Origin: a virus
DNA: 51,955 bases
Virus record (IMG/VR): IMGVR_UViG_3300008516_000074
Location: 1-51,955 of that record
Direction: 5' to 3' (one strand)
Both the position numbers and the translations under genes were made by a program. Shown here piece by piece: positions 2,788-46,860 of the stretch (its first letter is position 1; each line of letters starts with the position of its first letter). Under the pieces are notes generated by a model. It did not search any database. It worked only from the letters and a program-made list of their open reading frames with translations, and had not been told where the DNA came from.

Positions 2788-3354
2788 ATGAAAAGTAGGA
2801 AAGAGGTTTTGAAGAAAAAACTTATTGAGGTAATTAAATCAGATATTAAAAATGATATAGTAGCTGAATTAATGAAGAAATATGATGAAGAAATAATACC
2901 ATTTGAAGATACAGATGAACCAGAAATAGTAAGCCCCTCTTTTTGCAGATCAGAATTTAAAGAATTCTTAGAAAAAAGTATAGAAGAAAGTATTAGAACA
3001 GAAGGGGATAATATTTCGTTTGGCATTGCCGATGAATCAAAAATGGGACTTGGAGAAGAGCTAAACGATCAAACTACAGACTGCCTTAAAATTATTTCAA
3101 CAATCTTGAGTGGCATTAGTGGCAACTATGTTTTAGTGACCAGTGAAATGACAGGTAGACTAGAAGGTAGAACAGGACAAGCGGAATTATGGACAAGGGA
3201 AGGATATGATAGAGTAGCTTTTATGAGAGGATGGGACCCAAACAAAAAAACTTGGGGATTTTCTAATTTTGAAGGCATTCCAGATTTCTTTGATGTGGAT
3301 ATAGATCAATATATAGATAAATATATGGATAAATTGATAAAAGGATTGAAATAA
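2788..3354 (+). CDS. Putative neck/tail-completion protein
   Basis: A 188-residue protein of unknown family. The N terminus is charged and helical, and the acidic central part continues into a C-terminal region with G-R-T-G-Q-A-E-L-W-T-R-E-G-Y-D-R-V and a final helix (Y-I-D-K-Y-M-D-K-L). The GAAGG of the preceding leader motif acts as ribosome binding site. Size and position between neck-like genes are compatible with a gp10-like or completion protein, but no diagnostic motif is seen. Confidence 0.5.
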   Translation: MKSRKEVLKKKLIEVIKSDIKNDIVAELMKKYDEEIIPFEDTDEPEIVSPSFCRSEFKEFLEKSIEESIRTEGDNISFGIADESKMGLGEELNDQTTDCLKIISTILSGISGNYVLVTSEMTGRLEGRTGQAELWTREGYDRVAFMRGWDPNKKTWGFSNFEGIPDFFDVDIDQYIDKYMDKLIKGLK

Positions 3355-3357
3355 TTT

Positions 3358-4419
3358 ATGAAAAGGCTTACGTATGATTTTGTAAAAGAAAGTTTTGAGA
3401 AGGAAGGCTATGAATTATTAAGTGAGGAATATGTAGATAGTAAAACTAAGTTGGATTATAGATGCCCTAAAGGACATGAACGAAATACTACTTGGGCAAT
3501 GTGGCAACAAAACAGAAGGTGCTCCATTTGTTCAAGGGAAAAAGGAATTGCTAAGAGACGAGTATCTTTGAAATTTATTAAAAGTCAGTTTGAAAAAGAA
3601 GGATATGAGTTATTAAGTAAGAAATATACTAATGCCCATACCAAATTGAGATATAGATGCCCTAAAGGGCATGAACATGATGTTGTATGGGGGCATTGGC
3701 AGCAAAAACGAAGATGCCCTTATTGTGCTAGAAAAAAGAAATTAACTATAGAATTCATTAGATTTGAATTTGCTAAAGAAGGGTATAAGTTATTAACAAA
3801 GATATATAAAAATGCATTTCAAAAACTATATTATATTTGCTCGAATGGACATAATCATTACATTGTTTGGGGAAGTTGGCAGCAAGGTAATAGATGCCCT
3901 TATTGTGTAAATTTAGGCAAACCAACTATAGAATTTATAAAATCTGAGTTTAAAAAAGAAAAATATATTTTATTAACTACAGAGTATAAAAACTGTTTGC
4001 AAAAATTGGAATATATTTGTCCTAGAGGGCACAAACACAGTATTAATTGGAGTGGTTGGCAACAAGGACATAGGTGTTCGTATTGTGTAAACATCATATC
4101 TAAAGGTGAAGTAGAAGTGAGAAATTTTATTAAATCTTTGGACATAGAAGTTTCGGCGAATAATAGAAGTCAAATATTTAATCCAGAAACTGGGTATGGT
4201 TTAGAACTAGATATTTTCATGCCAGAATTTGGCAAAGCCATAGAATATAACGGTGAATATTGGCATCGAGATAAAAGCAGAGATTTGTTTAAGCAACAAC
4301 TTTGTGAATCAAGAGGAATAAACTTACTAACTATTTGGGATAAAGAATGGAAAACACAAAAAAATGTTTGTGAAGAAAAAATAATGAAATTTGTCTTCAA
4401 TAATGAAAGAGGTGTTTAA
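3358..4419 (+). CDS. Vsr-like (EDxHD) homing endonuclease with four zinc-finger repeats
   Basis: A free-standing 353-residue homing endonuclease gene. Residues 1 to about 245 are four copies of a roughly 60-residue unit with the pattern F-x-KEGY-x-LL, then C-P-x-G-H, W-x-x-W-Q-Q and R-C-x-x-C, probably zinc-binding DNA-recognition fingers. The last 100 residues form a very-short-patch-repair-like nuclease: K-G-E-V-E-V-R-N-F, E-L-D-I-F-M-P, A-I-E-Y-N-G-E-Y-W-H and L-L-T-I-W-D-K-E-W. This is the architecture of the phage endonuclease I-Bth0305I family. The gene is packed with 3 bases on either side between structural genes and has only a weak ribosome binding site. A close paralogue lies at 45988-46860. 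Confidence 0.85.
   Translation: MKRLTYDFVKESFEKEGYELLSEEYVDSKTKLDYRCPKGHERNTTWAMWQQNRRCSICSREKGIAKRRVSLKFIKSQFEKEGYELLSKKYTNAHTKLRYRCPKGHEHDVVWGHWQQKRRCPYCARKKKLTIEFIRFEFAKEGYKLLTKIYKNAFQKLYYICSNGHNHYIVWGSWQQGNRCPYCVNLGKPTIEFIKSEFKKEKYILLTTEYKNCLQKLEYICPRGHKHSINWSGWQQGHRCSYCVNIISKGEVEVRNFIKSLDIEVSANNRSQIFNPETGYGLELDIFMPEFGKAIEYNGEYWHRDKSRDLFKQQLCESRGINLLTIWDKEWKTQKNVCEEKIMKFVFNNERGV
4233..4267 (+). repeat. 35-bp exact repeat shared with second Vsr-like endonuclease
   Basis: Identical to 46689-46723. It encodes the A-I-E-Y-N-G-E-Y-W-H nuclease motif. Identity at this length, including silent positions, indicates duplication or recent exchange between the two endonuclease genes. Confidence 0.8.
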
Positions 4420-9856: not shown

Positions 9857-9883
9857 ATGAAAAAGTAATAGGAGGACTGTTCT

Positions 9884-12800
9884 TTGCCACCTGTCAGAGA
9901 ATACACCATTAAAATAAAAGAAGAACTTTCTGCTATGAAGAAAGCTGTATCTGAGCGTCAGCCTCAATATAGACAACTTTCTTCTGATAGGGTATCTAGG
10001 CTTTTAGAACAAGCTATTAATGCTTTATCTAAAAATCAAAAAGAATTTAAAGCGTCTATAGACAAATTAACAAAAGAGCTTAGCATTAAAGTAGAACATA
10101 TTAGTGGTAAGAAAACGCCAGATCCATCCATTGAGTTATTAGGAAAAGAGATAAAAAGTTTATCTAAGAGCTTAAAAGAACTACCGCTTACTAAAAAGGT
10201 AGCAATGATTGATCTAGAAACTAGTCCTATACGTAAAGGCGGAAAGTTAGGCGGTAAAGTAGATTTTATAACACAAGCTGGTGTTTTAGTAGCAAGTCTT
10301 GAAGATATGCTAACAAAGACTGCTAAAGAGTTAGAAAAACAGACTAAAAGTATATATATTAAACCACCAAAAAAATTAGCTTTTACTGAAGCTGAATATA
10401 AAAAAGTAATGAAGCCTCTTACTGAAAAGGGTATTAATATTGTTCCATGGGAACAGTTAGAAAAAAGTGGGCTTGAAGCTAAAAAAGCACTTGATAAAAT
10501 AGCGAAAACTATACAAGACGCTGATATTATAATTGGTCACAATATAGAACAGTTTGACGTAAAAGTTTTAAATGATGCTTTTAAAGATGCTGGGACTAAA
10601 ATAGACCTAGCTGCACAAGAATATTATGATACTGTCATAGCTTCTAGGAAAAAGTTTCCAAAAAGAGGCGGACATGAATTAGCTGGATATGAAAAAGACA
10701 TGGTTTTGGCTGGCAAAGAATATGCTGGCGCAGCTCACGATGCTGCACATGATGTTTTAGTTACTACAGACGTATTAAAAGCATTAGCTGGAAAATCTAA
10801 AGAATTAGAAGCAGCAGAAGGCGATTTAAGTAATATTTTATTAAAGTTAGCTGATAGAGTAGAAGCTATTTTTACTGTAGCTAATAAACTTGAATCATCT
10901 TTTGAACATGTTAATAAAGAAGTATTATCAACTGGAAAAAGTTTTAGATCTTTACATGATACTATCCCTATAGCAGATGAAAGCCTTACTAATTTGATAG
11001 AAGAAACTGATAAAACAGCCAAGGCTTTAAATAATTATTCTAAAAAAGCATTTATAGATATTAAGAAAGTTTCAGAAATAAAATCTGGTATAGAAACCAC
11101 TACTTTTAAACCCTCAGTGATCCATCCTACCACTACTCCATATAGATATAAAGGCGTGCCGCCTGGAGCTGATGTTCCTTATGGCACTGGTTTGATCGAT
11201 AAAAGAGTAAGTGCTTTAGCTGTCTCTTTAAAGAAATTACAAGATGATATGGTAAAAGCATTGCAACGAGGTTTACGTAAAGGAGTAGAAATATTAAAAA
11301 CAGAAGAAGAAGAGTTTTTCCAACTTGGTAGGGGCGGTAGAGAATGGGAACTTCAAGTAATAGATGTAAATGATCTTAGAAGAACACTAAGAGAATCTTT
11401 TGGAAAAAGAGTCCCATCAGAAGTTAATACTAGGGAATTAGTAAATACCTATAAAAAGCTTTATAAAGAAAGAGAAGCTGGATATCCACGATCTGTAGAA
11501 GAAACCGCAGCTGAAATATATTCGTGGTTTAGAAAATATGGTAAAGAAGAAGTAGGAGCGAAAGCTATAGGAGAAGTAGATCCGTATATTAAAAAGATGT
11601 ACGAGGAATTTAAAACTAAAGGCGTAGGAATAGTATCCCAACTTGAGTCAGATCCTAATTTAGAAAGACTGTATGAAGCTACTGCTTTACAATCCAAAGC
11701 AATCGAGCATTTAACTAAAAGATTTTTAAAAGTATTAACTCTTCCAGCAGCACAAATTACTAAAGAAGGCACAGTAGGTTTTGAAACAAAATATGGTGCA
11801 GAACGTGCTTTTGCTCAATTTGCTACTTTAGAAACAGGGTTAGAAGCGCTTGCTAAAGAATTTAAAGATCTTGGCGGCAGTGTAGGAGAACATGCTACCT
11901 ATTTACATAGGATATCTAAACTTCCTTTAAGGCCTAAAAAGAGAGCAGATTTGGAAGAGTCTGAAAAATTAGCTGGCAGCTTAATAGAGAGTGTAAAAGG
12001 TGTAGGTGGAAAAGAATTAATTACTGAAGGTTATAGAGAAGCTATTAAACTTAGAAAGATTGAAAGAAAAGAGGACATAAAGGGTTTTGATGAACTTAGG
12101 ATGACTTTTAGTAAGCTTGAAGAAGAGGCTAAAAGACTTAATGTTACAAGTTTAGATGTGGCAAATGCTCTTAATAAAGTAGATTTTGAAAATTTTTATG
12201 ATGTATTGAATAGATTGTATACAGGCGGAAAAGAGCCTTTTTTAACAGCGAAAGCTGGTCGTATGACAGAATGGAATAGAAATTTGCGTCAGGTTTCTGA
12301 AATGCAAAATGAACTTAAAGGTCTTATGCCTTTAAAAGGGCCAGGAATGGTAAAACGTGGTGCATACGAAGAGCAGGTAGTTAAAGTACTTAGTAAACAA
12401 GGTTTTGGAGAAATGACCCCTGCTAAGCAAAAAGAGCGTATAAAAGAAGTAAATTTATTGTGGGCTGAAATGGTAAGGAATGTCGAAAAGTTGGGAAAGG
12501 AAATGCCAGAGGTTACTTCTATAGATTTAAGTGATGCTGCTGCTTCGCAATTTACAGAATTTAATGCAAATTCTGCTAGTACTTTAAGAGCTTTAGGTAA
12601 AGTAATGACAAGTGGTAGTATGGCTGGTGTGAGAGGACAAGTGCCTTTTAAAGAATTTACTTCTACTAATAGAGCAATGTCACAGACAGCCAATGTTTTA
12701 AAAACTTTGACAGCAGAAGCACCTACAATAGTAAGTCCTCGCGAAATGGAAATGATTAAATCTGGTAAGTGGGGCGCTGGAAAGTATGGTATAAATGTTT

Positions 12801-15800
12801 TAACTGAATTAAGAAATACAGCATCAACTTTTGAAGATCAGATAGTAATATCTGGTAAATTAGCTAAAGCTTTTACTGAAATAGTTAAACCTCTAGTTAA
12901 AGCAGCTGCTACGTTTGGTGAAATAGGTGAAATAGAGCCTGGTTATAAAAAAATAAGCGGTAAAGCTAAGCAGCATTTTAGAACTACATTAGAGGAACCA
13001 GAATATAATAAATTGATTGAGGGCGTATCAAGTAGAATTCAAGAAGTTTTAGGTGTACCTACACATTATCGTGGTAGAGCAGATATAGCTAAAATAGGCG
13101 AAGAAGTACAAAATGTAATGAGAGAACATAGGGGAGAGTCTATAGAAGTTCAGACAGCTAAACTGACAGAGACTTTCCTTAATTATTTTGGTAGGAAATT
13201 AGTTACTAGATTTGGTACTAAAGGTGTGGCTGTAACTCCTACTAAACCTCCTACAGAGATAAAAGAATATAAAGATATAGCAAGAGCTATGGCTGCTGGT
13301 TTAAAAGCTGAGGTTGTGCCTGGAGAAGGCATTGGATTTGCAAAAATTCCAAAAAATATGGGCCAATTATTAGCTGAAATGTTTAGTGAATCAAAAGTAG
13401 ATAAATTATTTGATAAAGGTGTTCTTGATTCGTTAACAAAACGTTTAGAGGAATCAGGTAATAAGTTTATATTAGATTTATTTACAGATGCAAGTAAAGG
13501 GTTAGTAACTAGTAAAGAAGCTAAGAAGCAACAAGATTTGTTTGAAGAAACATCATCAGCGTTTAAAAAGGCTTTTGGAGAAGAATTGCCAAAAGATTCT
13601 GTGGAAGCTGTAAAGTTTATAAGAAATAAATATAAAAAGGAAATAGGTGGAGGAGAGGTTTTTGAATTAAAACCAATTGAAGCTAGAATTAGTGCTCGTG
13701 GAATTGCTAAAAGAGGTTTAATGCCAGAAGTTCTTGAAGTACTGGTTAATAATTTAGTAGGTTCTACTGAAGGTGTAACAGAAATACTTAGTCAAGCTGG
13801 CAAAGAAACTCTAACAGCTAGTGATGAAATGAGAGAAGCAATGAATAAATATCTTGCTGTTTTGGGGTATGAGCCGCTTAAGAATTTAGAAGCTATGCAA
13901 GAAAGATTAAAAATGGAAGGTGCTGTTCCAGAACAAATAAAAACATTAAAAGAATGGGAAAAGCAATGGCATGTTTATACAGAAGGCCTTAATGAATTTG
14001 GTGAAAAAGTACATGATATACTTGTAGGCCCAAAATATTTAGGAATCACTGAAGAACCGCATATTTATAAGGGATGGACAGAAAAAGAAATTGGAAAAGG
14101 TGTAAAAGGAGAAAGACTTAATTTTCAGGCTTTTGCTGCCTATGCTGGTATTTTTGGAGCTGGATCTTCAATGCTAAAAGAATTAGCTGATGCTACCGGT
14201 TTAACAGCTGAAGAAGGATGGGAACTTATAAGAGCATTACAAATGATAGACCCAGCTTTAAAGAATTTTAAAGAATCTATGTTAGGTACTTTAAAAGAAG
14301 TAAAATTATCAGACATTAAATCATTTGAAGCAGGCACTGCAACTTTAGAAGAGTTGAAAGGTACTATGTTTGATATATCTAAGTATCCTAGCCCTTTTAA
14401 AATTAAAACGCCTACTACTGAAAAGGGAGCTGGGAAGTTTTATGAAGAGACGTATGTTCCTGGCCCTGCATTAAGAGCTACTTATCCAGAAGAATTAATG
14501 GGGGGAAAAGTAGCACCTACCAATATATCTAGATATCTTAGTAATTTTGTAAATGCTGCACAAACTGTTGAGGATATATCTAAAGTTGCAACTAGGGGAG
14601 AAATGACGCTAGATGACAGAACTATGGATAAGTTTGCTCGAACAGTACGTGAAGAGTTGACTAAAAAATTAACTGAAACATATAGAGAAGTAGCATCAAT
14701 TGAGTCTAAACAAAATGTTACACCAGCTAATATAAAATTGATGGAAAGTATTATTAATAAATTGAAACCTGTTTTAGAAAAACAAAGAGCTCCTGCTCCT
14801 TATGCTAGACCTGCTCTTAAACAGGGTATAGAGTTTCCTACTATGCTTGAAGCTATGGAATCTTATGAAAAAGAATTAGCTGGAGCTCCTAGAAAATATT
14901 CAAGGGTGTTAAGTAGAATTATGGATATGATAATTGGACCACAGCCAGAAGCATTGCGGGAAGAAGAGGAAAAAATAGAACGCGCTTTAAAACAATATAA
15001 AGAAAGAAGGGCTACAAAAGAAAAACAAGGCAAAACTGTAGGTGAAGAAGAGGTACCTCTTGAATATATGAAGGCTTATAAAATATATGGCCAAGGCGGC
15101 AAAGTACCTTTTGAAGATGTAATGGGAAGTTTTAAAAAGCAGTTAGAGGCAAGAAAAGAGGCTCCAACTGTTTTTGATGTTGAAATACAATCAGGTAATT
15201 TAAAAGAATTTGCTGATAAAGTAGGTATAAATTTAGAAATAACTGTTAAAGAAGCTCTTGAGCGAGCTATGGAATCTTTAAGTAGAGCAAAGGTTGCTTA
15301 TTTTGAACAATTAGCAAAAACAGTTCTTGGACCAAAACATGCTATAGAACAGACATTTTTTCAAAGAACAATACCGGCTATAACTGGTAAGGCTATTTCA
15401 GCTATAACTGATAAAACTGAAGAGTTACATGATTTATTAGCATTATTTGAAGGTAAAAAATTTGATATAAGATTGGACATGCCGAATATTGGAAAGTTAA
15501 AAAGTGATTTAGGAAGGATAATAAAAGATCATGAAAGATATATTGCTAAGTCAAGACAATTAGGTTTACCGGTTTTAAAAGAAAAGGAGATAGGGATATC
15601 CCCTTTGATGGCTAAAGCTCTTAAAGTTGAGACGGCGCAAGGTCTAAAAACTAATTTAGCCGCTCTTATTGAAAAACGAGATAAAATGTCAGAAAAAGAA
15701 CTTAATGAGTTAAAAGTGTCTAGGGATGTTTTTGTTGAATCTGTTAGATATCCATTTTACGGCACTGTTAGTGCACAACCACATAAAGCTAAGTTAATGA

Positions 15801-18800
15801 AAGGCCCAGAATCTAAGTATTCTATTGCTGTTCCTGGCGCTCCTGAATTAGATTTGCCAAAATTACGTGGGATAATAGGTAAATTGGAAGAATATGTCTA
15901 TGGTAAGTTTAAGGGGGAAAAGGTTGAAAAGCCTGGTTTGTTACAAAAGAGGGAAAAAGCATGGTCAGAGGGCACAGAAGAAAGTACTAAAAAAGCTAGT
16001 AGTTTGACTAAAGAAATAGAAAGTTTGATATCTATAATAAAAAAAGCCACTCCTACTTTTATTAATATGGAACAAAAACTTGATTATGATGGTGATGCTT
16101 TGTTTGTTCATACTGGCAAGCTTGAAGAGTCTAGGAAAGAAATAGCGAAGCATTTTAATGCTCTTGGAGAAGATATTACTTCTGTTAGATCATTATTTTC
16201 TACTTTATTTACTGCTGTAAAAGAGACTGATGTTAGATCGCTCTCAGAGATGGCTAATATATTTGCTAAAAAACATCCAGAAGAAAAAGGATATGCGTGG
16301 CTAACTAAGCCATATATAAAAAAGGAAGTAAGTAATCTTGGTGTAAGCGAGATAATGGAAGCTTTATTTAGTTATACAAAAGAAGCTACTAGATTAAAAG
16401 GTGAGTTGAAAAAATTAGAACAGGTAGGAACACCAGCTAAAGAAATAGCGAAAATTAAGGAAGAAAAGACAAAGGAATGGGCTAGTAGTTTTAAAGAAAT
16501 GGAAATTTTGCCAACAGTATATAAAAAGTTAGGCGGAGCTACTGCTGAGAAAGCTGGAATGGAGCCAGGTAAATTTGAGGAAAGAGTTGGAGAATTAACA
16601 GAAGAATTGATTAGAAGAAAATTATGGGAACAAAAATATAGCGATGCTATAGTAGGACAGTTATATAAATTACATACTGGTCAAACAGTAGAATCTATTA
16701 GTAGATTGGCTAGAATGTCTGAATTAGAAACAGGTTTTGGAAAGGGGCTGGCTAAGACAGGTAGAAAAGAATTCAAGCCTTCAGAAGAATTTTTAGCAGA
16801 ATGGCCTAAAAAAAGTATAGCTTTGGGAGGAAGGCCGGTTCAAGAATTTGCTACAAGAATGAATGAAATAATGAGGTTTGTTATACAAAAAGGAATGGAT
16901 GAAAAACATGCTGGAGTAGAAGCTGTAGGCTCAGAAATTTTAAATAATGTAGCAAAAAAAGGTGGCGCTCGTACTATTATGAGAATTATGCGAGAAGAAG
17001 AGGATCAGTTTAGTGATTTAGATGATTTTAATAAACAAATAGCTAAAGAAGCAAAAATTAGATTAGGGGCTGTTTCTACACCAGAGCTTAAAGGAGAATT
17101 AAAAAGATTTCAGATTGGTAATATGAAATATGAGGATTTAAAGAAAGAGTTTGAATCGCTTGGAGGAGAAATATCTGTTGATGCACCAAGAGAGGTTTTA
17201 GTTGATGCTTTGGTTGAAGCTGCTAAAAAAGCAGATATTAGTAAAGATAGAGAACAAATTATAAATGAAATAATAAAATATATTGATTTGGAAGCTGTTT
17301 TTGGTGAATTATTTAAAATGATTAAAAGAACAGCTGTAAAAGGACTTATAAAAGAGTTGCAAACTGAAGTAGCAGAATTGCCTTTAGAAAAACGTGTAAA
17401 AAAAGAAGCTGAAGTAGCTAGGGCTGGTGGGTATGAAAGTTTTGCCAAGAAAGAAATTGAAAAGCAAGCAATTAGTGAAACTGGTGTTAGTATTTTAAGA
17501 TATGTTACTAGTAATTTACAGCCTTTATATAGAATGCGGACTAGAATGGAAACACCAGGCATGGTAGCTGGACGAACACGTGAACGTATAGAAGCTCCTC
17601 AAATGGTATTGCCATCAGCAGGCGGCGAAAGATTAAAAGAGACCTATGAAAATGTATTAAAAACTTCTAGGGTTCTAAGCAGATCTATGGCTGGAACTAT
17701 TGGTTCAGCTGGAGGTGGTGTTCATTCATTAATGGTTCTTAGTGCTTTAGAAAAAAGATATAGAGATTTAGAAAAAATAACTGAAGTAGCTAAAAGAGCG
17801 GAAATTCCTGAAGGATATGGAAAAGAATTAGCCACTAAAGAATTTCCATATTTACTTGGTTCAGCAGTGGAAGAAATTCCTAAATTAGCAAGTGATGTTT
17901 GGAATGAATCATGGAAAGAATCTGGTGATAGTATTATTAATAGTATAGACACATGGTCTAATAAATTAAAGAAAGTTAAAGATATAGCTAGTGGAAAAAT
18001 AGAAGAGTTATCTCAGATAATGAGTGTTCCTCCATTAGCTACAGAAGAAGAATATGAAGCATATTCAGAATTTTTAGCTAAATATCCAGCAGCTCTTAAA
18101 AAGATTTCTAATAAAATTGAAACTATGGTTAGACAGACCGCTAAAGTTCCTGAAGAAAAAATGGACGAAGTAGTAGATTCTTTTACAGATCAAGCTCAAG
18201 CTTTTCTTAGATTTCAAGTAGGAATGTCAGAACAGCTAAAGCGTGTATCTGAATCTATGCGCGCAGCTCCATTTCAAAAATTAAGTCTTGAAATGGCTTT
18301 TCCTAAATATGAGGCTGCTATTGGTAAAGGTCCAATTGATTTAGCTAATGAAATTAATAAAAGAGAAAAGGAAAGTTTTGAAGATCTTAGACGAAGCAAA
18401 CTTGAAGAACATAAAGATTACCAGGAAAGAATCGAGGAATTTTGGCAGAAACAATCGACTGCAAGGCCTTCTGATATTAAAGAGACTATAGAAGCGTATA
18501 AAAAGCCAAAAATATCTGCTGAAGATCTTAAAAAAGTTATTGGTGAAGCATTAGATGAAATTTCTAAAGTCGCTGAAGGTAGTTTTGAAGATGAAATTAT
18601 TAAAAAGAAAATTTTAGCATTACGAGCTCTTGAAGAAAAAGCGGCCGGTCGACCTAAAGCTAAGGAAGAAGTTCCTTTATATAAACTATATAGAGGCAGT
18701 GGTTTACATGGTGGTGGCGGATATAGGGGTGTGCCACAAGAAGAAGCTATATTAAAACAAATGCTTGGTAAAGAAGAAAAAGACATGCTTTTGGAAGCCA

Positions 18801-21800
18801 CTGGTTTTAGAGGCAGTGCTATACATAGGGCTAAACAAAAAGAGTTTATAGAAAAATACAGTGAATATGGCAATGTTCAGATTGAAGGTTTAGTAGAAGA
18901 TTTAAATAATATGATTACTGGACATTATGATGTATTATTTAAGACTGCTACTGGTGAAAAGAGAATAATTGATATTAAAACTATATATGATCCTAAAAAA
19001 TTTGCTGCTATAGAAACAATTGCAAAAGAAATGCAAGAAAAGAAAATTACTTTGGGCGAGTATTTAACTAGGATAGGTGTACAAGATGCAGAATTAGCTA
19101 GAAGACTTGAAAGTTATTTGAGCCAAGTTAATTTTTATTTAAGTTCAAATATGGATGCATTAGGTGGCTTATTAGTTGTTAGTATGGAAGATCCTACTAA
19201 AGAAGCTAAATTAGAATTAGGTAAATTTGATCCAGCTAGATTTAATAGAGATATAGAAGTAGTTAAAAAAGCAAGAGCTAAAGTTGAAGGAATAATAAAT
19301 AGCATTACAGATGATATTAAAAAAAGAGAATTTGTAGAAGCATTACCAAAGACAGCTGGTTTAGAAACTTTAAGACAAATTGCAAAATCACCAGAACAAT
19401 TAGCTAGAGGAGAAGAAGAACTTTTTGATAAATGGAGTAAAGAATATTTAACTGCTTATAAAGCTATGGGAGAAGGCCGTAAAGAAAAGATGTGGGCAGC
19501 TACAGGCGCTGGTGCTGCTGGTGCTGGTGGCGGTATTGGTGGGGTAGGTGGTGGGGCACCCCCAACAGGTGGAGATGGAGAAGATGAGTTTGAAAAGTTG
19601 AGAAAAAAGGTTGAAGGATTATTAAGTCGTGGCACTAAACTTAATATTGAAGAGGCTATGAAATTAGCTGATGCTGTGTATGAAGCTAATAGTGGCTATA
19701 TGGATAGTTTAATTAATGGAAGTGAAAAACTTGCTGATAAATATATAAAACTAAAAGGATTAATGGACGCTGCTTTTGAAGCAACTTATGGTGAAAGGGG
19801 TATAAAAGAAGTTGAAAAAATAAGAGGTGTGTTTAAAATGCCAGAAGCTGGCGGGCCAGTAAAAGGAGTTGGTGGAATTCCACCTGGAATAGAAATTCCA
19901 AAAGAAGAGCCTTTTGCCACTGCTGGATATTTAAAAGCGATGTTAAGAAAAGCAACACAGTTCCATGATTTATTTGGTGGAAAAGATATAGAAAAGTTTG
20001 GCGTGGAGATAGAATCTTTATTAAGTGAAACTCTTAAAGAAGGCCCAGGATTTGATGTGGCTAGTAAAATAAGTGATGCTATAAAGAAACTTTCGCCTGA
20101 AAAAAGAGGTTATATAGCTGAAATTTGGAGATATTATAAAAAGAATGTTAGTGAATATTTTATTGGGCAGTTAGATGAATTAGAGGAGTCTATAAAGTCA
20201 GCTAAATCAGATGAAGCTGAAAGGAAAGCATATGATCAGTATCAAAGAACTTTACAGGCATTTATAGGAAATATTAAAAGAACTCTTGGTAAAATGAGTG
20301 ATATTTATACTCGTGGTGGTTTTGGAAGTATGAAAGAATGGGTATCACCAGAATTAGCTAAAGGTGCTGGATTATATAGAAGACCAGAAGAATTAGCTGA
20401 AATAGCCAGACAAAGCTCAGCTATGTCTGGAGAGTTTAGACCAATTTTTGATGTTTTAATTGGTGATCTTGATCCAATGTTATTAGAAAATATGCTTACA
20501 CCTTTAGAAAAAATTAGAACTGCTTTTACTATGTTAGCTAAAGAAGATAAGGGTCTTAAAGCTATTTTAGAAGATGCTGATTTATTTAGGCGAATTGGTG
20601 ATCAAGCAGTTGAAGCTTGGGATTTTGATAGAATGATTAGAGGTGTGACACAACTAAGGGCTGGTTTAGAAGAATGGAATAGAATGCAAATATCTGGTTT
20701 TGGAGCTTTTGGTGGTGCAGAAGATTACACTGAAGCTCAACGTAAAAATATACAGGATACTATTAAATATTTGAGACAAATGGAGCAAATGATGGGTCCT
20801 GTAGGTGGACCGAAAGGATCGCCTTGGAAGTTGTCTGGAGTTCCCCAATTTTTAGAACCAAAAGAGCAAGAGTTGCTTCATAAACGTAATATAGCTTTAG
20901 TAAGAGAGCGTTTTAAATTAAGCGAAGAAGCAGGTGGTCCAGTTAAAGGCCAACGTTTTACGTATAGACAAAGAATAGTTGATCCAGCTAGTAAGCAGGT
21001 TTTAAAGGATGTGGCAGAAGAATTTAAGAAATTGGGCGACGCCTCTACTGATGCTGGAAATAAAATGGGTATATTTACACAACGTACTGAAGACATGATT
21101 GGTGCTTTTCAGGCAAGAAAAGGCATTGGACAAGTATTTAGACGTGTTATTTTTTGGGGTGGGGCTAGTACAATAGTTTGGGGACTTATACAGTCTTTGA
21201 AAAATATGGTAAGTACAATAAGTGATGTTGAATATGGCATAGCTGTGTTAAGACAAGTTATGAGTCCATTAGAAAGTGATTTTAATTATATTACACAAGC
21301 AGCTTTAGATTTTGCTAAACAATTTGGGCAGCCTATAAGAAGTGTTATAGATTCAATGAGGGTTTTTGCACAGCAAGGTTTGGCTCAAGAAGAAGTTGTA
21401 GAAAGAGCTAGAACATCTCAGTTAGCTGCAAATGTTACCACATTAAATGCTTCTGATGCTACTGAAGCTCTTACTGCGGCTATGAAGGTTTATAAAAAAG
21501 AAGGGGAGGGCACTCTTCGTTTTCTAGACTCATGGAGTCAAGTAGAAGCTAGGCATGCTATTACTTCAGCTGATCTTGCTAATTCAATGAAAAAAGCAGC
21601 GGCTGTTGCTAAAACATCTGGCGTCACATTCGATGAATTAAATGCTATTGTTACTGGTATTGGAGAAACTTCTCGACAAACTGGTAAAGAGATTGGTACT
21701 TCTTTAAGATTTATGTTTAGACGAATGCAGGCAGAAAAAGGACCTAAAGCATTAGGCGAAATAGGAGTACCAGTAATTGGAGAGGCAGGAGATCTTAGAA

Positions 21801-24800
21801 AAGGGTTTGATATTTTAGGCGATCTAGCTGGAAAATGGGATGAATTAACTAATTCTCAGAAATTATCTATTGCACAAGCTATAGGCGGTCGTCGTCATTA
21901 TAATAGTTTAATTATTCTGATGGATCATTGGGGAGATGTTTTAGATACATTAGAAGATAGTATTAATTCTAAAGGCGCTGCAGAAAGACGTAATGCTATT
22001 GTTATGGAAACATATGCAAAAAGATTACAACAAGTTAAAGCTGCAGCAGTAGAGTTACAAGTTCAATTTGGTAAATTAGCACTTCCTATTGCTAAAATAG
22101 TACTAACTGGTTTCAAAGCATTATTAGAAACTATAGCAAACATACCAAATTCTGTAAAGACTGTAGTTTTAGCTGTTGCTGGTTTATTTGCTTTATTTAG
22201 TAAGGGCCAAAGTTTTGTTACTCGTTTTACTGATAGTTTTAGATTATTACCTGAGATTATGAAAGATTTAGCAGGCGCTGCTAGCAAGGAATTAAAAATA
22301 GGATTATTTGAAGTTTTTGGTAAGCTTCCAGGCAAACTTGAAATAGATACTAGAGGGCTAAAAACTATAATGGAAGCTACTAGTATGGGTGATTTAGAAT
22401 CTATTTTAGGCAAAGTTGGATATAAGGCTGCTGAATTTGGTAAAAGTTGGAATTCTATGTTATCTGAGATATCAGTTGGTGGCGCTACAGCTTTTGAAGC
22501 GGTAAGTAAATTATTTGGAAAATTTGGTACTTTATTAGAAGTTGGTAGTACAGCTTTAGCAACAACTGGTAGTCCAATAACACAAGCTTTTGCAGGGGTT
22601 TTAAAAGTAGCAGAGAAAGGTGCTGAAGGAGCTGATAAAGTTTCTATGAAGGTAGCTAAAGCAATGGGTGTATCAGCTGAAAAGTTAGCAGAATGGACTC
22701 AAGGTAATACTAGTTTTGTTAAATCAGTTGCACCTATGGTAGCTTCTTTAGCGGCTTTAACCCCAGTAGCTATAAAAACATGGGGTAGTATGAAAAGGTT
22801 GTCTTCTTCTGCTGATGAATATGAGAAATCAATGGCTGGGGTTAGAAGAAAAACAAGTGGCGAATTACAAGCTTTGAGAGATTTATCAAGTGGATATGAA
22901 AGACTTGGTAATACAATTAAAGATATTGGTGAATCTAGGAAACCTGAAGCTAAACAGAGGGCTATAGAAAGAGAAGAATATGAAAGCCCAGTTTTTAGAA
23001 CAGCTAAGTTATATAAAGATACACAAAAATTTGGTAATGAATTAGCTAAAAGTAATTTTTCTTTAGTAGAAAGTTTTGATGAGTTTGGTAATGCAGTTTT
23101 AAAAACTAATCGTAGTTTAAAAGAACATGTTGATTTGTTATCCGCTGCTAAGAGAGAAGAAATTGGTAAAATTGAAACTGATATATTAAGTAAATATGTT
23201 GAAGATTTGACTGGAGGCAAAGGTTTTGCAGAGACTTTTAAATATGAACTAAAAAGATTTGTTAAAGAAATACCAGCTGTAGGCGGATTAATTGCTAAAC
23301 ATATAGCTATTTCTCCTTCTAAAGAATTAGATGTTCTTAGAGATAAAATGAATAAGGTATTATCTTTAAAAGAAAAATATCCAATGACTACTGCTGTTGA
23401 GCCTTTATTTAAAAAATATTATGAACAATTAGAAGACGCTAGAACTAGATTTGCAAGTACTTATAAAAGTTTTAGAAGAGTATTAGCTGATATACCTACA
23501 AAAGGATTGAAGCCTTTGGAGATAAAAGATTTGTTAGATACAAAAGAGCTGAGAAAAGGCTTTGAGTTGATGGTAAGAGTAGAACCAAAATTGCAACTAA
23601 AGGAAATGAGAGGCAAAGTTGATTGGAAAGATATTTTAGGCACAGAGATTTTAAAACGTATATATCCAGAAAAGCCGTTGGATTTTGCTGCGCCACTTAC
23701 TAAAGAATTGTTATTACAAAGTAAATTGTTTAAACGTACTGGTAAAGCCTTTGCTGGTGATATAGTATTATTTACAGAGGATATAAATAGAACCGCAGAA
23801 TTTTTTGGAAGAAATGTAGGAAAAGGTTTTGATGTGGCTGGTAGACAAGGTGTATTAAAATTTAAGGAAGGCGTTGGTTATTTTGTAGAATATGTAACTA
23901 AGGAAATGAGACAGGTAAAAGAAGTACCTTTTTCAGATGTAGAAAAATTTGTTGATGCTATATTTCCAACTGTTACTATTCAAGAACGATTACAAGATAA
24001 TATAGCTGTTTTGGAAGAATTTGTGGCTGGGGCTGCTGCTGGTATGACAGGTATTACAGAAAAAGAATTTAGAAAAAGTTTTAGTCTTGGTGAAAGATTT
24101 TTTTCTCAAGTTCCAACTACTACATTATTACAAACTACAAAAGGATGGGCTCCAGGCGCAGGATATGGAGAAATGCCATATAAGGGCGCGGGAGTACCAA
24201 GAACTTATGAAACACCGTTTGCTGATTTAACTAAAAGATGGGATGAATGGATGCAGACTTTCTGGTTTGAACCTATGGAGCAGCTTAAGGTGCTTGCAGA
24301 GCCAGCTGAAAAAAGAGCTATAGCTGGTGAAGGTCCTGGTTATGGAATGGCGGAGGATATTCAAAGGCTGTTGGATGTATTAAAAAACAATCAAATAGTT
24401 ATACAGTATAGAGCTTTACATGAAGATTTGATGAAAACTTTAAATGAAGGAGCGAGAACACTTAAAGAAACTATTGCTGTAGAAAGAATAAGGAATGAAT
24501 ATTTAGTTCAAACAAGCGGTATACTAAAAGATATGCCAGAAGATTTAAGTGACATAAATTTAGGAGTTAAGAAATTTTCTGAATTGACAGCACAGCAGAG
24601 GGTGTTACTTGGAGAAAGAGCTAAGCCACCAGCAGAAAGAGGATTTACTGTAGCTAGAGATGCGTATAGAGAAGCAAAAATGAGAAGAGAAGCTTTAGTT
24701 ACACAAATAGAAGCCACTGAAAAAGCACGTGTACAATTAAAAGAAATTAGAGCCACAGCCGTTGGTTTGGGGGCAGCTTTATCGCCAGAAGAAACAAAAA

Positions 24801-27800
24801 GAATGGCTGAATCTATAGCTATAGCTGGAGATAAGCCTTTAGGACTTATTTTAGATCAAGAGAAACAGATAGTCTCTAATACTGGTAGAATGGCAGAAAC
24901 AATGGATGATTTATTGGCTTATATGGGAGATCCAGAAGCAGCTATTAGGAAAAGTTTTAGGCAATTTGAACATATTGAAAAGCAGACAAAAATTGTTAAA
25001 GCTGATATAAATAGGGGAAGTATTAAAGGTATAGGAGATAGATTTGATTATTTGGTTAAATTAAGAGGTGTATATGAAAAGGTTGGAAGAGAAGATCTTA
25101 TTAAGGCTATAGATACTTCATTAAGTGATTTGTCAAGCACTTTGGTAGAAAAAATTGGCATGAAAAAGGCTATTAAAGTGATGGAAAAATCATGGTTAGA
25201 TATTCCTAACGCAGTTGGAGATGCTATTAATGCTGCTACTGGGCAAGCTGCAACACCATTAATTGGTGTTGAAAGGTTGATGAATAGACTTCCAGGAGAA
25301 TTTACAAAAAAGGAATTTATAGAAAAAGCTATTGGTGATTTAGGATTAAGAGAATTTACGGAAGTATTAAATAAATATGTTGGAAAGACAGATAAGAGTA
25401 GTGAATATCTTAAAACATCTGCTGAAATAGTGAGAAAATTTGGGCGTTTCGTACCAACAATAGGAAGTTTGGTAAAACATGTGCCTATACCATCAACTGA
25501 AAGGGAGCGTGTACTTGGATCTAAAGAATTTAAAGGTTTAGAGAAAGAAATGTCATCACAGACAGTTGTCAGTGTTACTACTTCAAAAAATATACAAAAA
25601 ATGTTTGCTGCTTATGCTGGTTTTCAAGATATTTTTAGAAGAGCTGCTAATAGAGAGGCTAGATATTTTGAAGTTCAAATTGACGAATTAAAAAATCAAA
25701 GAAAAGATATAGTTGATCAACTTAAAGTTGGTACTATTTCAAAAGAAGAGGCTGAAAAATCTACGGTAGGCATAGATAAAAAAATAGCTGAAATATCAAC
25801 AAAAAGAGAAGAAGCCATAGGAACAGCTGAAAGAAGAGCTACTCAAGAAGCGGTAGGTTTGATAGCAACTGGCGGTGTTACATTTGCTAGAGCTGTTGGT
25901 TTAAGTGAAACAGCTTTAAAAGGGTTGGGAGAAACTGCTGCTGGAGCTTTGGTTGCGTGGCATGCATGGAGCGCTTTAACTGGAGAGCCTATACCAGAAT
26001 ATATTAAAGATCTTGGAAATAAAGCCAAAGACGCAGCTAAAAAGGTTGGAAAAGCAGCTCCTGGTTGGGCAGCTAGAACATGGCTGGAAGTAGAAAAATT
26101 GTTCGGATTTGGCCTTGGTGGGGCTATAAAAACAGCTGAAGAGGAAGCTGGAAAGAAAAAGCCTATATTTACTGAAGCAGAAAGAGAAAAGATAAAAAAG
26201 GCTAAAGATTTACAAGTTAATCAAGAACAATTGAAAAAAGCAGATGAGTTATTGAAGGGTGTTAAAAAGGATGATACAAAACAGCTAGACACTAATAAAC
26301 AAATATTGAGTGAGAATCGTCAGCAAACTGATATTTTATTAGGTATTCATGATGCTCTTAAAATGCTTCACGAAGCTCGTAAAGAAGAGTCTAAAAAGAT
26401 AGAGGATCAAACTAAAGCAACAGAAGGTATTAAGGGTATAGAAGGAGAACAAAAAGGCCAAAAGGCAGAAACTAAAAAACAAACAGATTATAGCAAAAGG
26501 GATTCAGATAATGTTAAAGCGCAAGTAACGTATTCTAAGCAATTGAGAGACAAAATAGATGCTATAAAAGTAGAGAGACTAAAAGAGGGGGACATAGGAA
26601 CTAAAATACGAGACATTCTTACTGTAGCTTTATTGACAGCTACGACTGGATATGTTGCTGATGCACAGGCTTTTGGTGCAGAATTAGGTGAATACGAATC
26701 TAAAGCTAAAAAAATGTCTGAGTTAGTAGTAGAATTAATAGAAAAATTCCCTTCTGAAGTAGGAAAAGCTATAGAGGTGCTTAAAGAAGAACGTGCCAAA
26801 AGAGAGAAAAAAATAGCTAAGCCTGGTGGTATAACTAAGACTGAAGAAAGATCTATAGCAGCTGATCAAGAGGCAGCTTATGAAGAAGTAGGTAATATGT
26901 TATTAGAATTATCTATGAAATTAAAAGATCAAGCTAGTGATGCTGGGCAGATAATGTCAGAAGCTGCTGATAAAATGCGTCTTAGAGAGATAGCCGAAGA
27001 AATAAAAATGGGAATAGAAGAGTTAGATAATGCTATAAAGGTGTCTAGAGTTGTGCAAGTATTTGAAAATAAATTTATTAATCCACTTATAGGGGCGTTA
27101 AAAGGAATTAATGTGCCACAAATTGATTTTGGTAGAAAAATTACTGATCTTAGTTCATATGAAAGTTTAATGGTTGGAAGTAAAAAGTTTCGCAAGATAG
27201 GAGAAGGCGTAGAAAAAGATATGACGGAACGTACTGCTTTAGTATCTAGAGCTACTTCTATGATGGAAGAAATAGAAAAATCTAGGTATAAAGAGCTAAA
27301 CAATGTTGAAAAAGAGTATTTTGATTTACTTGGCAACCAATTAGATAAAATAAAAGTTAGGATAAATGATCTAAATGGATCTATTGCTGAAGGTACAAAA
27401 AAGCTTAGTGAAGCTACTGTAGCTGAAGAGTTTAGATTGGAAAAATTAACAGAAGCCGCCACTGTGTTAAAAGAAACAGCTATTGCTGAAGCTCGTGCTA
27501 AAATACCTACAGGAGTAGGAATACAAACTGGAGCATCTCCTTTTACTGGTGGTATAGATTTTGGTGTAAAGACAATGAGAGAATTGGCTCCTATACAAAG
27601 AGCTTTTATGGAAAATGAGCCAGCTTTTAAGAATTATAGCAAGAGTGTTGCCGAAGCTGGATCTGCAACTAGAAGGTATGAAAATTTAATAAGCAGAAGA
27701 GCTGATGTAGAGCATAGAATGAGCAGAGAGAAAAAGGAGTTAGGATTTCTTGGATTTGGTGGTGCTTCAAAAGAAACTAAAAAGGAATTAGAATTAATAA

Positions 27801-30800
27801 ATAAAGAATTAGAAGGTGGATTTTTTAGATTTATTGGAGTTGGAGAAGGAGCTGAATCAGCCGCTATAAAAGCTGCGGAAGCATTATCTAAATTAACTAA
27901 TTCTTTATATGGGCTTAGCGAAGCAGCTATTTTTCAAAATCAAATAGAAACTGCCGGAATAAATGTATTACAAGAACATGCTAGGTTGATTACAAAAACA
28001 CAGTTAGATAGACCAGTAGTTGGTGCAGGAATTAGGGGTGGTTTTCCTGAAATAGAAACTGGACGAGCTCCTTATCAGCTTGCTCCAACAGAACGATTGT
28101 TTACAGGAGCTGGCACAGAAAGCAAAAAAATAATAATGCTTTATCAGTTATTACAATCTCAACGCCAAAGTGAGATAGGTTTACTTCAAGATGGTAGAAC
28201 TGCTTTAATAAAATATAATGAACAATTAAAAACAGCAAAAGAAAAAGGCCAGGACACAAAAGGCATTGAAGAAGCTATAGATAGGCAGATAGATAAAAAT
28301 AGAGTTCTTGAACAAAGTATAGGAAATTTTACTAATAAATTAGGCGACTTAAAAATTGTAGCAGAAGCAGTTTCTTTTCAAGGATTAATAGGTGATTTAG
28401 AAAATTTGAAAAAGTCTTTTTTAATTGGAGAAGCCACTCAATATGAAAAAACTCCATGGGATATAATGAGGGGAGGCAGACATCCAAAGGCTCCTGTTGT
28501 ACCAACTTTTGAAATGGTTCAGGCAGGTATACCAGAAGAAAAATTGTGGAATACGACTAAATATGAAGCTGCTAGAGCAAGGCTTAGAACTTCTGGAAAA
28601 CCAATATCAGCTAGAGATTTAGAGCAAATAAGATTTGAGGAGTGGAGAGACACAATGCTGTATAAACAGCAAAAAGAAGATGATGAATTGATGAGACAGC
28701 GAAGACATGGAGAAGAAATATTGTCTAGGTTATCTTCAGCTAGATACGATGCGGAAGCAAAAGGCCAAACAGGTTTAGTTGGTAATATAGATACATTGTA
28801 TGATAAGATGAAAACAATGATAGAAGCTGCCCCAGAAGTTACAAAAGAAGAGGGTGGATTATTACATTATAAAGGCTTTGATTTTATTGGCATTTTTGAA
28901 AAAATGAAATCATTAGCTCCTCAATTAGATGCTAGAAATTTTACTGACCCTATTAAATTTGAATTAGAAAAACAGACAGATCTTTTAAAAATAATATCTG
29001 GTGTAAAACCTGAAGAAGAAAAAGCACGTAAATCTATAACTGAATCTGGATTTCTTGAACGTATTCCTATGTATTATGAACGTCAACGTAAAGCTGCAAC
29101 TGAAAAAATATATGGCACTGGGGAATCCCTTAATAAATCTATTAAAGAAGCTTTATATGGTGAGTTTAATACATATTGGTCAAAGTTTTCTAAGGAAATT
29201 ATTGACAATGTCATTAAGTACTACTCACTTGAATTTTTAGTACATGGTGAAAAGAAACATATTGGAGGTCAAATATTTGGTCCAGGAGGACCTAGAGAGG
29301 ATAGAATTCCTATATTAGCAAGTGCAAATGAATACGTTGTAAAAGCATCATCAGCCAAAAAGTTAGGATATGGCGCCCTTGATTATATGAATGAAACTGG
29401 CCAAGTTCCAGGATTTGCTGTTGGTGGAGTATTAAGAAGAAATAGAAATACTAGTGATTGTGTAATAGGCGGTCCTGGTTATGGTAGTGGGATGGGTTCT
29501 AGATTTAATGATGGCGGATTAATACAAGCATTTCAAGGCGGCAAAAAAATAGAAAAAAATGTTGATGATATGACAGGCCCAGAAAAAATAGAATGGCTAA
29601 AAAATAGATATTCAAATGTAGGAGAATTAGAACCAGAAAAGGTAGCAAAAAAATCTATATTTGAAAAAATAAAAGATATTGTTGGTATTGGTAAGTCTAA
29701 ACCACTTCCTGTTAAAGATGAAGCTATGCTGAAAACTAAGTATGCAAGTTATAGAATAAAAAAATTGACTGAAAATAGCAATGTTTTATCTACATTATCG
29801 TATGAGGACTGGCTTAAGCAGCGTGAAAAGGAAGGTTTTAAATATGGAGGATTAATACAGCCATTTGAAAAATTTGCTACTGGAGGTATTTTTGGTTGGG
29901 GCGCAGAGAAATTAGGTGTTGGAGCTGATTGGGTGTCTGAAAAACGACAGTCACTTGCTAATGATATTTGGAGCGATCCTGATCAGGGCGTGTTTAAGAC
30001 ATTTAATAAATGGGTGTCTAATACTTCTAAAATGGCAGTTCTTGGAGCGGCAGAAATTGCTACAAAATTAGCTAAAGCCCCTTTAGAGGGGATGTCAATA
30101 ATAGAAAGTATGTCAAAAGGATATACAAAGTCTACTATTGGTGGAACTCTTGGAAAAGACTTAAAAAAAATAGCGGCAATTGGCGGTCGTGGATTACAAT
30201 CGGTTGCTGAATTAAATCCAATGCTGTTTGCGTCAAAGCATATAATTGGTGGCGGAGATTTAGGTTCTTTAACAGATGCTTATTTAGATAATGCATCATG
30301 GGTAGGTGATATAGGCGGTTCTATAGGAAAATCTGCTATGGAGGATTTGGAAAAAGGAGGGACAGGTATTACATCTGGATTATTAGAAGCTTTGATAGGA
30401 ATAAAAACTGTTGGAATGATGGGTAAATTTTCTAAAACTAAACATATGAATACTCCTATAGATGAATTATTAAAAGTAAAACGACCTCCTAGAAAAACAA
30501 CAAGTAGTTGGGCAAGGGGGTTTGAGCAATACGAACAAAAGAAACAAATTAGTCCAGAGGTTAGTGAAGCAATTAATCAATATATTGAAAGGCAAAAAAC
30601 AGGAAAATATATAAAAGAGCTATATGTTAATAAACCTAGGCCAAAGTTATCAGAAATTGAATTGGAAAAAATAAGAGAAACTATAATTCCAGGTAGAAAA
30701 GTAGGTGTTAGTGGAGAAAGAATTATGGAAAGGCCGCTAACAACTTGGAGTGAATTAAATCCAGGATTAGCAAAAGGGCCGATTTTTAAAGATCTACTAA

Positions 30801-36417: not shown

Positions 36418-36447
36418 AAAGAAGAAGTAATAATTATGGAGAATATT

Positions 36448-37137
36448 ATGGAAATGAAAATTTGTACTAAATGTGGTGAGCCGAAAAATATAAAAGAATT
36501 TTCTAAATATTTTGATAATAGAGATGGTAAATATTATTATAAGAGTAAATGTAAAATTTGTTTGAAAGAATATCAGAAGCAATGGTATGAGGATAATAAA
36601 GAGTGGTGTAAAGAATACCGTAGAGACAATAAAGAAAGAACAGCAGAATATGATAGGCTGTATTATGAAAAGCATAAAAAGCGATATCATAAATATAATA
36701 AATGGTGGTACGAAAATCATAAAGAGCGTTATTGTAAACGTTATCAAGACAATAAAGAATACATGAGTGAGCAGCATAGACGATATAAAGAAAATAATAA
36801 ATTTAAAATAAATGCTTTAACTGCTAAGTACAGAGCTACTAAGAAAAACCAAATACCTTTAGACGCTGATTTAGAAAAAATTACTTATATTTATCAAGTT
36901 TGTGAAGCAATGAATTGGATAAGTGAAGAAAAATACGAAGTAGATCATATTAAACCTATTTCGAAAGGTGGCTTACACCACCAAGATAATTTGCAAATTT
37001 TACTTGCAGTGTTGAATTACGAGAAAAACGCTAAATGGCCTTTAACTAAAAAGGAAAAAATAAGATATAAAGGGTTAACTTTGGAAGATTGCAGAAATAA
37101 TTGGGAGGTTATTAAAAATGTCTATAATAATCGGTAG
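36448..37137 (+). CDS. HNH homing endonuclease
   Basis: About 229 residues. An N-terminal zinc knuckle pair (C-T-K-C and C-K-I-C) leads into a highly charged Tyr/Lys-rich helical repeat region. This ends in a C-terminal HNH nuclease with Y-E-V-D-H-I-K-P-I-S-K-G-G, then H-x-x-D-N-L-Q and a final N-Y-E-K-N. It is a free-standing mobile endonuclease that would cut phage DNA lacking the insertion. An ATG at 36436 is also in frame; 36448 has GGAG 6 bases upstream. Its last 20 bases overlap the start of the next structural gene and carry that gene's ribosome binding site. TAG stop. Confidence 0.9.
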   Translation: MEMKICTKCGEPKNIKEFSKYFDNRDGKYYYKSKCKICLKEYQKQWYEDNKEWCKEYRRDNKERTAEYDRLYYEKHKKRYHKYNKWWYENHKERYCKRYQDNKEYMSEQHRRYKENNKFKINALTAKYRATKKNQIPLDADLEKITYIYQVCEAMNWISEEKYEVDHIKPISKGGLHHQDNLQILLAVLNYEKNAKWPLTKKEKIRYKGLTLEDCRNNWEVIKNVYNNR

Positions 37138-45987: not shown

Positions 45988-46860
45988 ATGGCCAGAAAAA
46001 AATTAACAATAAAATATATAAGAGAACAATTCATAGAAGAGGGGTATGAGTTATTAACCGAAATTTATGAAAATGCGAAACAAAAATTAGATTATATTTG
46101 TCCTGAAGGCCATAACCATTGTATTACATGGAGTGATTGGAAAAGCGGAAGACGGTGTTTTTGTTGTTCTAATAGAAATAAAGGCAACTACAAAAGAATG
46201 AATATTCATTTTATTAGATCGGAATTTGCAAAAGAAAGATATCAGCTTTTGACTGCTAAATATAAAAATCAATATCAAAAACTAAAATATATCTGTTTTA
46301 ATGGGCATAAACATAGCATTAGTTGGAATAATTGGCAACAAGGCGCTAGATGCCCTTATTGTTCTGGTAAGGCTAAACCTACTATAGAATTTATAAGATC
46401 TGAGTTTAAAAAAGAAGGCTGGAGATTTGAATCTATTGAATACATAAATAATAATAGAAAACTAGATTATATTTGTACAAATGGACATAAGCATTCTATA
46501 AATTGGGGTAATTGGCAGCAAGGTAAAAGATGCCCATATTGTATAGGAATTATATCTAAGGGCGAAATCGAAATAAGAAATTTTGTTAAATCTTTAGGCA
46601 TTGAAGTTTCATCAAATGACAGAAATCAAATATTTAATCCAAAAACTGGATATGCATTTGAATTAGATATTTTCATGCCAAATCTTAACAAAGCCATAGA
46701 ATATAACGGTGAATATTGGCATCAAGATAAAAGTAAGGATTTACTTAAGCAAAAATTATGCGAGGAAAAAGAAATAAATTTATTGACGATTTGGGATAAA
46801 GAATGGAAAACAGAGAAAACTATTTGTAAAGATAGAATAAAAGAATTCATATTTAATTAA
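45988..46860 (+). CDS. Vsr-like homing endonuclease with three zinc-finger repeats
   Basis: 290 residues, a paralogue of the gene at 3358. Three finger units (C-P-x-G-H...W-Q-Q...R-C-P-Y-C), where the other copy has four, are followed by a Vsr-like nuclease with K-G-E-I-E-I-R-N-F, E-L-D-I-F-M-P, A-I-E-Y-N-G-E-Y-W-H and L-L-T-I-W-D-K-E-W. In the first unit the usual W-Q-Q is W-K-S and R-C-P-Y-C is R-C-F-C-C. Inserted between two fibre-type genes with 8 and 15 base gaps and AGGAG upstream. Function as for the first copy. Confidence 0.85.
   Translation: MARKKLTIKYIREQFIEEGYELLTEIYENAKQKLDYICPEGHNHCITWSDWKSGRRCFCCSNRNKGNYKRMNIHFIRSEFAKERYQLLTAKYKNQYQKLKYICFNGHKHSISWNNWQQGARCPYCSGKAKPTIEFIRSEFKKEGWRFESIEYINNNRKLDYICTNGHKHSINWGNWQQGKRCPYCIGIISKGEIEIRNFVKSLGIEVSSNDRNQIFNPKTGYAFELDIFMPNLNKAIEYNGEYWHQDKSKDLLKQKLCEEKEINLLTIWDKEWKTEKTICKDRIKEFIFN
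46689..46723 (+). repeat. 35-bp exact repeat shared with first Vsr-like endonuclease
   Basis: Identical to 4233-4267, in the coding region of the A-I-E-Y-N-G-E-Y-W-H motif. A one-base difference follows and then further identity. Confidence 0.8.

Follow-up and report, generated by a model that had tools for sequence, protein, structure and literature searches.

The stretch of DNA analysed here (the window, 51,955 bases) is the entire IMG/VR record IMGVR_UViG_3300008516_000074, a single metagenomic contig that is probably a fragment. Its plus strand holds a giant open reading frame (ORF), which we interpret as a tape measure protein from a long-tailed phage; its N-terminal third is predicted to be a single-chain two-barrel DNA-dependent RNA polymerase (RNAP), with a DnaQ-like exonuclease at the N-terminus and a Cas4/RecB-like nuclease on the C-terminal side of the polymerase; we put the probability of this interpretation at roughly 86%. 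The ruler and polymerase features are the following, residues being those of the giant protein:

9870..9875, + strand: Shine-Dalgarno AGGAGG of the giant ORF, read from the sequence, 8 bases ahead of the TTG start
9884..32164, + strand: giant ORF, tape measure protein with fused enzymes; 7,426 amino acids open, with homologous giant ORFs in related contigs
11561..12703, + strand: conserved N-terminal part of the putative RNAP region, residues 560-940; family-wide conservation from about 560, where the profile also begins to match the free-standing RNAP found in a relative (G007, below)
12788..13393, + strand: beta-like barrel segment (double-psi beta barrel B, DPBB-B), residues 969-1170; two in-order local RpoB profile matches, free phage RNAP match at E 3e-6, fold unresolved by AlphaFold
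12830..12853, + strand: FEDQIVIS motif, residues 983-990; E and D do not vary in alignments of 28 and of 36 members
13190..13228, + strand: GRKLVTRFGTKGV motif, residues 1103-1115, with the putative catalytic K1105 and K1113; R, K, R, G, K and G unchanged throughout both alignments (28 and 36 members)
13394..15715, + strand: connector between the barrels, residues 1171-1944; helical for the most part and conserved across the family
15716..16213, + strand: beta-prime-like barrel segment (DPBB-A), residues 1945-2110; RpoC profile match, PF00623 in relatives
16082..16111, + strand: DYDGDALFVH, putative metal-binding motif of the active site, residues 2067-2076; all 28 aligned members keep D, D, G, D and H
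16631..17188, + strand: conserved stretch following DPBB-A, residues 2250-2435; expected place of the bridge helix and trigger loop
21182..22192, + strand: tape-measure core, residues 3767-4103; TIGR01760, PhageMin_Tail, PHROG 4211

The core of the giant ORF matches TIGR01760 (NCBIfam, E-value 2.3e-35) and PhageMin_Tail (Pfam PF10145, E 2.9e-25), both above the cut-off, as well as PHROG 4211 (E 9.6e-76). Because the PhageMin_Tail and TIGR01760 matches lie in the same ORF as the polymerase motifs, the label of tape measure protein, which a first-pass annotation had assigned from the letters of the sequence, is right. That annotation had also placed a series of polymerase signatures in this protein, and we recovered every one of them at the residues it gave and in a single frame: besides the FED, GRKLVTRFGTKGV and DYDGD motifs these are GIN at 969, NMGQ at 1158-1161, RYP at 1955 and Q1965. 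The M-G-Q segment among them is present but only partly conserved in relatives, where it reads MGQ, VGE, VGQ, AGE or MGA. In 2000 shuffles that preserved composition, FED-x4-S appeared in 152 and G-x-K-x3-R-x-G-x-KG in four, while D[FYL]DGD-x4-H appeared in none, and all four motifs in order were likewise found in 0 of 2000.

Relatives of the polymerase region were found on about 45 IMG/VR contigs by scans with the barrel segments, a first viral scan with whole-region patterns having returned none; a scan of 84,980 cellular genomes, for which one alignment served as the query, found none either, nor did tblastn in 50,697 phage records. The giant ORFs of this family are 7,007 to 8,654 amino acids long (in the contigs with a measured frame) and their domain order is constant, that is barrel B, barrel A, nuclease and tape-measure core. 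Both barrels and the core share one ORF at 37 loci (the window and its relatives, some of them near-identical), and at 30 of these the nuclease domain is in the ORF as well; many metagenomes have yielded the same fused order, in dozens of independent contigs. The FED, GRK-x3-R-x-G-x-KG, R-x-P and LD-x-DGD...H motifs are invariant or almost so in 28 relatives, which are about 30-54% identical to the window, and the beta-like part shows the same invariance in 36 aligned sequences. Pairwise distances in the RNAP region and in the tape-measure core are strongly correlated (Mantel r 0.90, with 0 of 2000 permutations as high), and this co-divergence, together with the one-ORF order across 37 loci, indicates that the fusion is old and stable and not an assembly artefact. 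The ratio of nonsynonymous to synonymous substitution (dN/dS) in one close pair of loci (L080/L083) was 0.025 for the RNAP region and 0.028 for the core, with a looser N-terminal part (0.109), and values of 0.055 and 0.172 were obtained for two further pairs; strong purifying selection acts on the RNAP region.

Two members depart from the single uninterrupted ORF. In G005 the giant protein is encoded by two ORFs (4,530 and 4,028 amino acids) that overlap by one base directly after the tape-measure core (L040, 18921-18925), so that one continuous chain is not indispensable, although the RNAP remains joined to the core. At a second locus (L056, 6092-20305, contig 3300009702_000031) nothing but in-frame TAG codons between the barrels (11690 and 12707) breaks the giant ORF; homologous sequence runs on across both, and a single long frame results if TAG is translated as sense, so that TAG may be recoded in this phage. 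An intron between these barrels was ruled out by the two in-frame TAGs with continuous homologous sequence and by the lack of an Rfam match. Another relative, G001, has intein domains in a glycosyltransferase-like gene, a ribonucleotide reductase and an RNase HII (L020:6244-8688, L021:7688-10888 and L021:12403-14106).

In regards to the similarity with cellular polymerases, the family was compared by hhalign with RpoB and RpoC profiles, both gammaproteobacterial only and the former made of 24 segments. The two top matches to RpoB paired TFEDQIVISGKLA with NFEDSILVSERVV (the FED segment) and GRKLVTRFGTKGVA with GDKMAGRHGNKGVI (the K...KG segment) in the correct order, and in this comparison the window GRKLVTRFGTKGV aligns with GDKMAGRHGNKGV of the Escherichia coli beta subunit. 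Against RpoC the DxDGD segment KLDYDGDALFVHTG was matched to NADFDGDQMAVHVP with an E-value of 7.4e-5 and a probability of 62%. Reversed-sequence and cross-subunit controls scored below these matches. The same tool applied to the single sequences of gp96, gp64, gp66, YonO, RpoB and RpoC had given scores that were too weak, though with the RpoB and RpoC matches at the right sites, and it was the repeat with profiles that produced usable signals. The Pfam domain PF00623 (RNA_pol_Rpb1_2) was found at the DxDGD site in eight of 11 family contigs, with a best E-value of 1.6e-5 in a giant ORF and every match below the curated cut-off. Single-sequence searches of the window protein in Pfam, NCBIfam, PHROGs and the PDB (phmmer) returned no RNAP match.

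Two of the largest family contigs, G007 (238 kb) and G014 (228 kb), carry, besides the fused enzyme, a free-standing gene for a single-chain two-barrel RNAP of 1,088-1,180 amino acids (L109:1055-4534 and L251, respectively) that has no tape measure and is probably the non-virion RNAP of these phages. The two free enzymes are 44-46% identical to each other. That of G007, an ORF of 1,180 amino acids with both barrels, is matched by PF00562 (E 1.1e-4), PF00623 (E 3e-4), RpoB (E 2.8e-5) and beta subunits in the PDB (E 7e-4), and also by the profile of the fused family (E 3e-6 over 247 columns), with homology leading into and including barrel B ('P-x-LRS...LI-x-SG...G-x-N...FEDQ') and a shared stretch before FED. 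Annotated phage records gave only two weak matches to the free enzymes. No free RNAP was seen in the other family contigs, the window included, which may be incomplete, and a search for a T7-like second RNAP found no match but its controls were unable to give a signal either. Taken together, the conserved catalytic residues, the in-register RpoB and RpoC matches, the homology with a free RNAP, the weak PF00623 matches and the purifying selection support the two-barrel polymerase that the first-pass annotation had proposed within the tape measure protein.

The same chain holds two nuclease domains that were absent from that earlier account:

10205..10783, + strand: predicted DEDDh (DnaQ-like) 3'-5' exonuclease domain, residues ~108-300 (DLET / GHNxxxFD / HDxxxD); RNase_T, PHROG 192
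18692..19258, + strand: predicted PD-(D/E)XK nuclease domain of Cas4/RecB type, residues ~2937-3125; H2981, E3001, D3016, D3030, K3032, Q3081

The exonuclease is matched by Pfam RNase_T above the cut-off (E 5e-9) and by the PHROG 192 exonuclease subunit (E 1.6e-14). Its DEDDh pattern occurs in the seven closest members (the window, L002, L003, L004, L073, L074 and L077), five of which also have the RNase_T match, and is absent from all nine distant members checked. The PD-(D/E)XK domain has the complete motif set H / E / GxxD / (D/E)xK / QxxxY, with active-site positions that are invariant in 24 members (H92, E112, D127, D141, K143, Q192 and Y196 of alignment A8); its profile matches the Cas4 structure 4ic1 (E 4e-4), and PDDEXK_1 was found in four members (best E 5e-5). 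A single chain thus encodes the ruler core together with RNAP and nuclease motifs that are conserved and under constraint. We found no earlier report of a DnaQ-like exonuclease or a Cas4/RecB-like nuclease in a tape measure protein in the literature searched.

Near the C-terminus of the window ruler protein there is also a zincin-like HExxH (HEFGH, residue 7084, window ~31133-31150), with none at the equivalent place in the relatives checked. Elsewhere in the window, a reverse transcriptase gene on the plus strand (323-1387; PHROG 1423, E 2.6e-115) is possibly of the diversity-generating retroelement or group II type. Two plus-strand ORFs (3358-4419 and 45988-46860) have similar repeated zinc-ribbon-like units and a common C-terminal 'NP-TGY-ELDIFMP--KAIEYNGEYWH', looking like homing endonucleases, and the genes at 36436-37137 and 48565-49422 have the appearance of HNH/nuclease homing genes.

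The first-pass annotation knew of no described system in which the ruler is itself the polymerase. This was mistaken, since gp96 of the Thermus phage P23-45 is a published tape-measure-fused virion RNAP for which activity, crystal structures and presence in the virion have been reported (Chaban et al. 2024, PMC10770324). In P23-45 the full-sized gp96, RNAP included, is found in virions; it can extend RNA, and it binds the 9 kb of phage DNA that enter first (PMC10770324). P23-45 and its relatives (P74-26, G20c, TSP4 and stolb1-3) account for 10 records in the phage collection, the stolb records being already annotated as 'tape measure protein and virion RNAP'. Like the polymerase predicted for the present family, that of gp96 is a single chain with two barrels and a DxDGD site, placed N-terminally in a giant tape measure protein, and the P23-45 genome also has a second, non-virion RNAP, as G007 and G014 probably do here. 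However, outside the DxDGD site there is no significant sequence similarity between the two (none by tblastn or HMMER, while hhalign matched that site alone, at a weak score of 26). An M23 peptidase is present in gp96, where no PhageMin_Tail core was found, whereas the family has the PhageMin_Tail/TIGR01760 core and no M23 peptidase was found in the window protein. Unlike gp96, the fused RNAP here keeps clear bacterial-type beta motifs with both beta lysines (K-x7-K-G) and has about 960 residues between the barrel motifs, and the protein has one or two nuclease domains and 7,000-8,650 amino acids as against 5,002.

The bacterial beta and beta-prime subunits share with the family the FED, K-x7-KG and NADFDGD...H segments, beta then beta-prime, but the family differs from them in being one chain with a long unrelated connector, in having no Pfam match above the cut-off and in showing no bridge helix or trigger loop recognisable by profile. 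YonO and gp66 have no detectable sequence similarity to the family. Both of these are single-chain two-barrel RNAPs, gp66 of the crAss-like phage phi14:2 being packaged in the virion as is supposed for the family; gp66 has DFDID instead of DFDGD and is not a tape measure, while YonO of SPbeta has a DNDGD site and is free-standing. No other tape-measure RNAP was found in the open-access literature, preprints excluded, although the supplementary survey of viral two-barrel RNAPs in the P23-45 paper, which fell outside this scope, might list relatives. The principle of a ruler-fused RNAP is already known from P23-45, and the present family is apparently a large, separate and undescribed one.

Several observations weigh against a polymerase in the ruler. 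The region at 2250-2435 has no profile similarity to the RpoC bridge/trigger region. PDB sequence searches of the RNAP region returned no RNAP, and its profile search coiled-coil noise only. An AlphaFold model of residues 925-2115 made with no templates had a predicted local distance difference test score (pLDDT) of 69.9 and a predicted template modelling score (pTM) of 0.42; compared with the PDB by Foldseek, its first matches were for the most part largest subunits of RNAPs (archaeal 4ayb_A with a probability of 0.95), which counts in favour of a polymerase, but all had E-values of at least 0.13 and none was significant. A second model, of residues 560-1400 (pLDDT 74.7, pTM 0.64), was good in its N-terminal half and poor in barrel B, and had a few RNAP beta chains among weak matches (E at least 1.9); viral models gave mixed noise. 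Barrel B was modelled at a pLDDT of about 40-60, and at such low confidence the models neither confirm nor contradict two facing barrels. The early genes and any second RNAP of this phage are out of view because the record is probably a fragment. Finally, the tape measure proteins of some siphophages are cleaved by proteases, and the full chain might not stay intact here either.

This established processing is one reason to consider that the RNAP, although real and sharing the reading frame of the tape measure, is freed by proteolysis or stays out of the virion and acts as an ordinary late or assembly-stage enzyme, and the splitting of the G005 protein past its core could be taken in the same sense. 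However, the G005 polymerase is still attached to the core, the one-ORF fusion has been kept with co-divergence at 37 loci, and in P23-45 the RNAP is found in virions on full-sized gp96, which makes this explanation unlikely. The barrels could also be the relic of a dead or repurposed RNAP serving as mere bulk in the ruler, as the weak Foldseek scores and the unrecognised bridge helix and trigger loop would allow, but none of the catalytic acidic and basic residues varies among 28-36 sequences that are about 30% identical, and the dN/dS of one close pair is 0.025, so that we consider such a relic very improbable. It is harder still to believe that the motifs are coincidental and the segment ordinary helical tape-measure sequence: the database searches with the window protein alone do fail to give an RNAP, yet the shuffles, the family-wide invariance and the in-register profile matches already refute this idea at the sequence level. 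An assembly chimera of an RNAP gene and a tape measure gene, conceivable for one metagenomic contig, is refuted by the dozens of independent contigs with the same one-ORF domain order and has a negligible chance of being correct.

Tape measure proteins set tail length, fill the tail tube and are ejected ahead of the DNA, and we infer that the family protein is likewise packaged in the virion, injected and active. The ruler would probably inject its RNAP and two nuclease domains in order to switch on the first phage genes. In such a scheme the polypeptide would set the length of the tail and fill its tube, as is known for tape measure proteins, and on adsorption would be ejected into the cell envelope before the DNA, as is known for the class. 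The RNAP end, at the channel mouth, would then transcribe the first-entering genes without the host RNAP, by analogy with P23-45. In G007 and G014 these leading genes probably include that of the free RNAP, which would take over (the gene is present, and its timing is a conjecture). The two nucleases would probably act either on the incoming DNA, processing or protecting it, or against host DNA where the phage DNA enters, and this is the weakest step of the scheme.

The evolutionary side of this proposal, to which we give even odds, is that a widespread family of long-tailed phages, all uncultivated, arrived separately from P23-45 at an injected ruler with several enzymes in one chain of 7,000-8,650 residues (exonuclease, two-barrel RNAP, Cas4/RecB-like nuclease and core), whose polymerase and nucleases act on DNA at the entry pore and whose fused RNAP hands over to a related free RNAP. 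New for tape measure proteins, as far as the literature searched goes, are the DnaQ-like exonuclease, in the clade of the window, and the Cas4/RecB-like nuclease, in most members, and the family yields a profile able to find such proteins. The published tape-measure RNAP belonged to a single Thermus phage lineage, and the second group is unrelated to it in sequence, much larger and built on another ruler scaffold. The association of RNAP and tape measure is thus recurrent or ancient and probably functional, and it probably implies that transcription is coupled to DNA entry.

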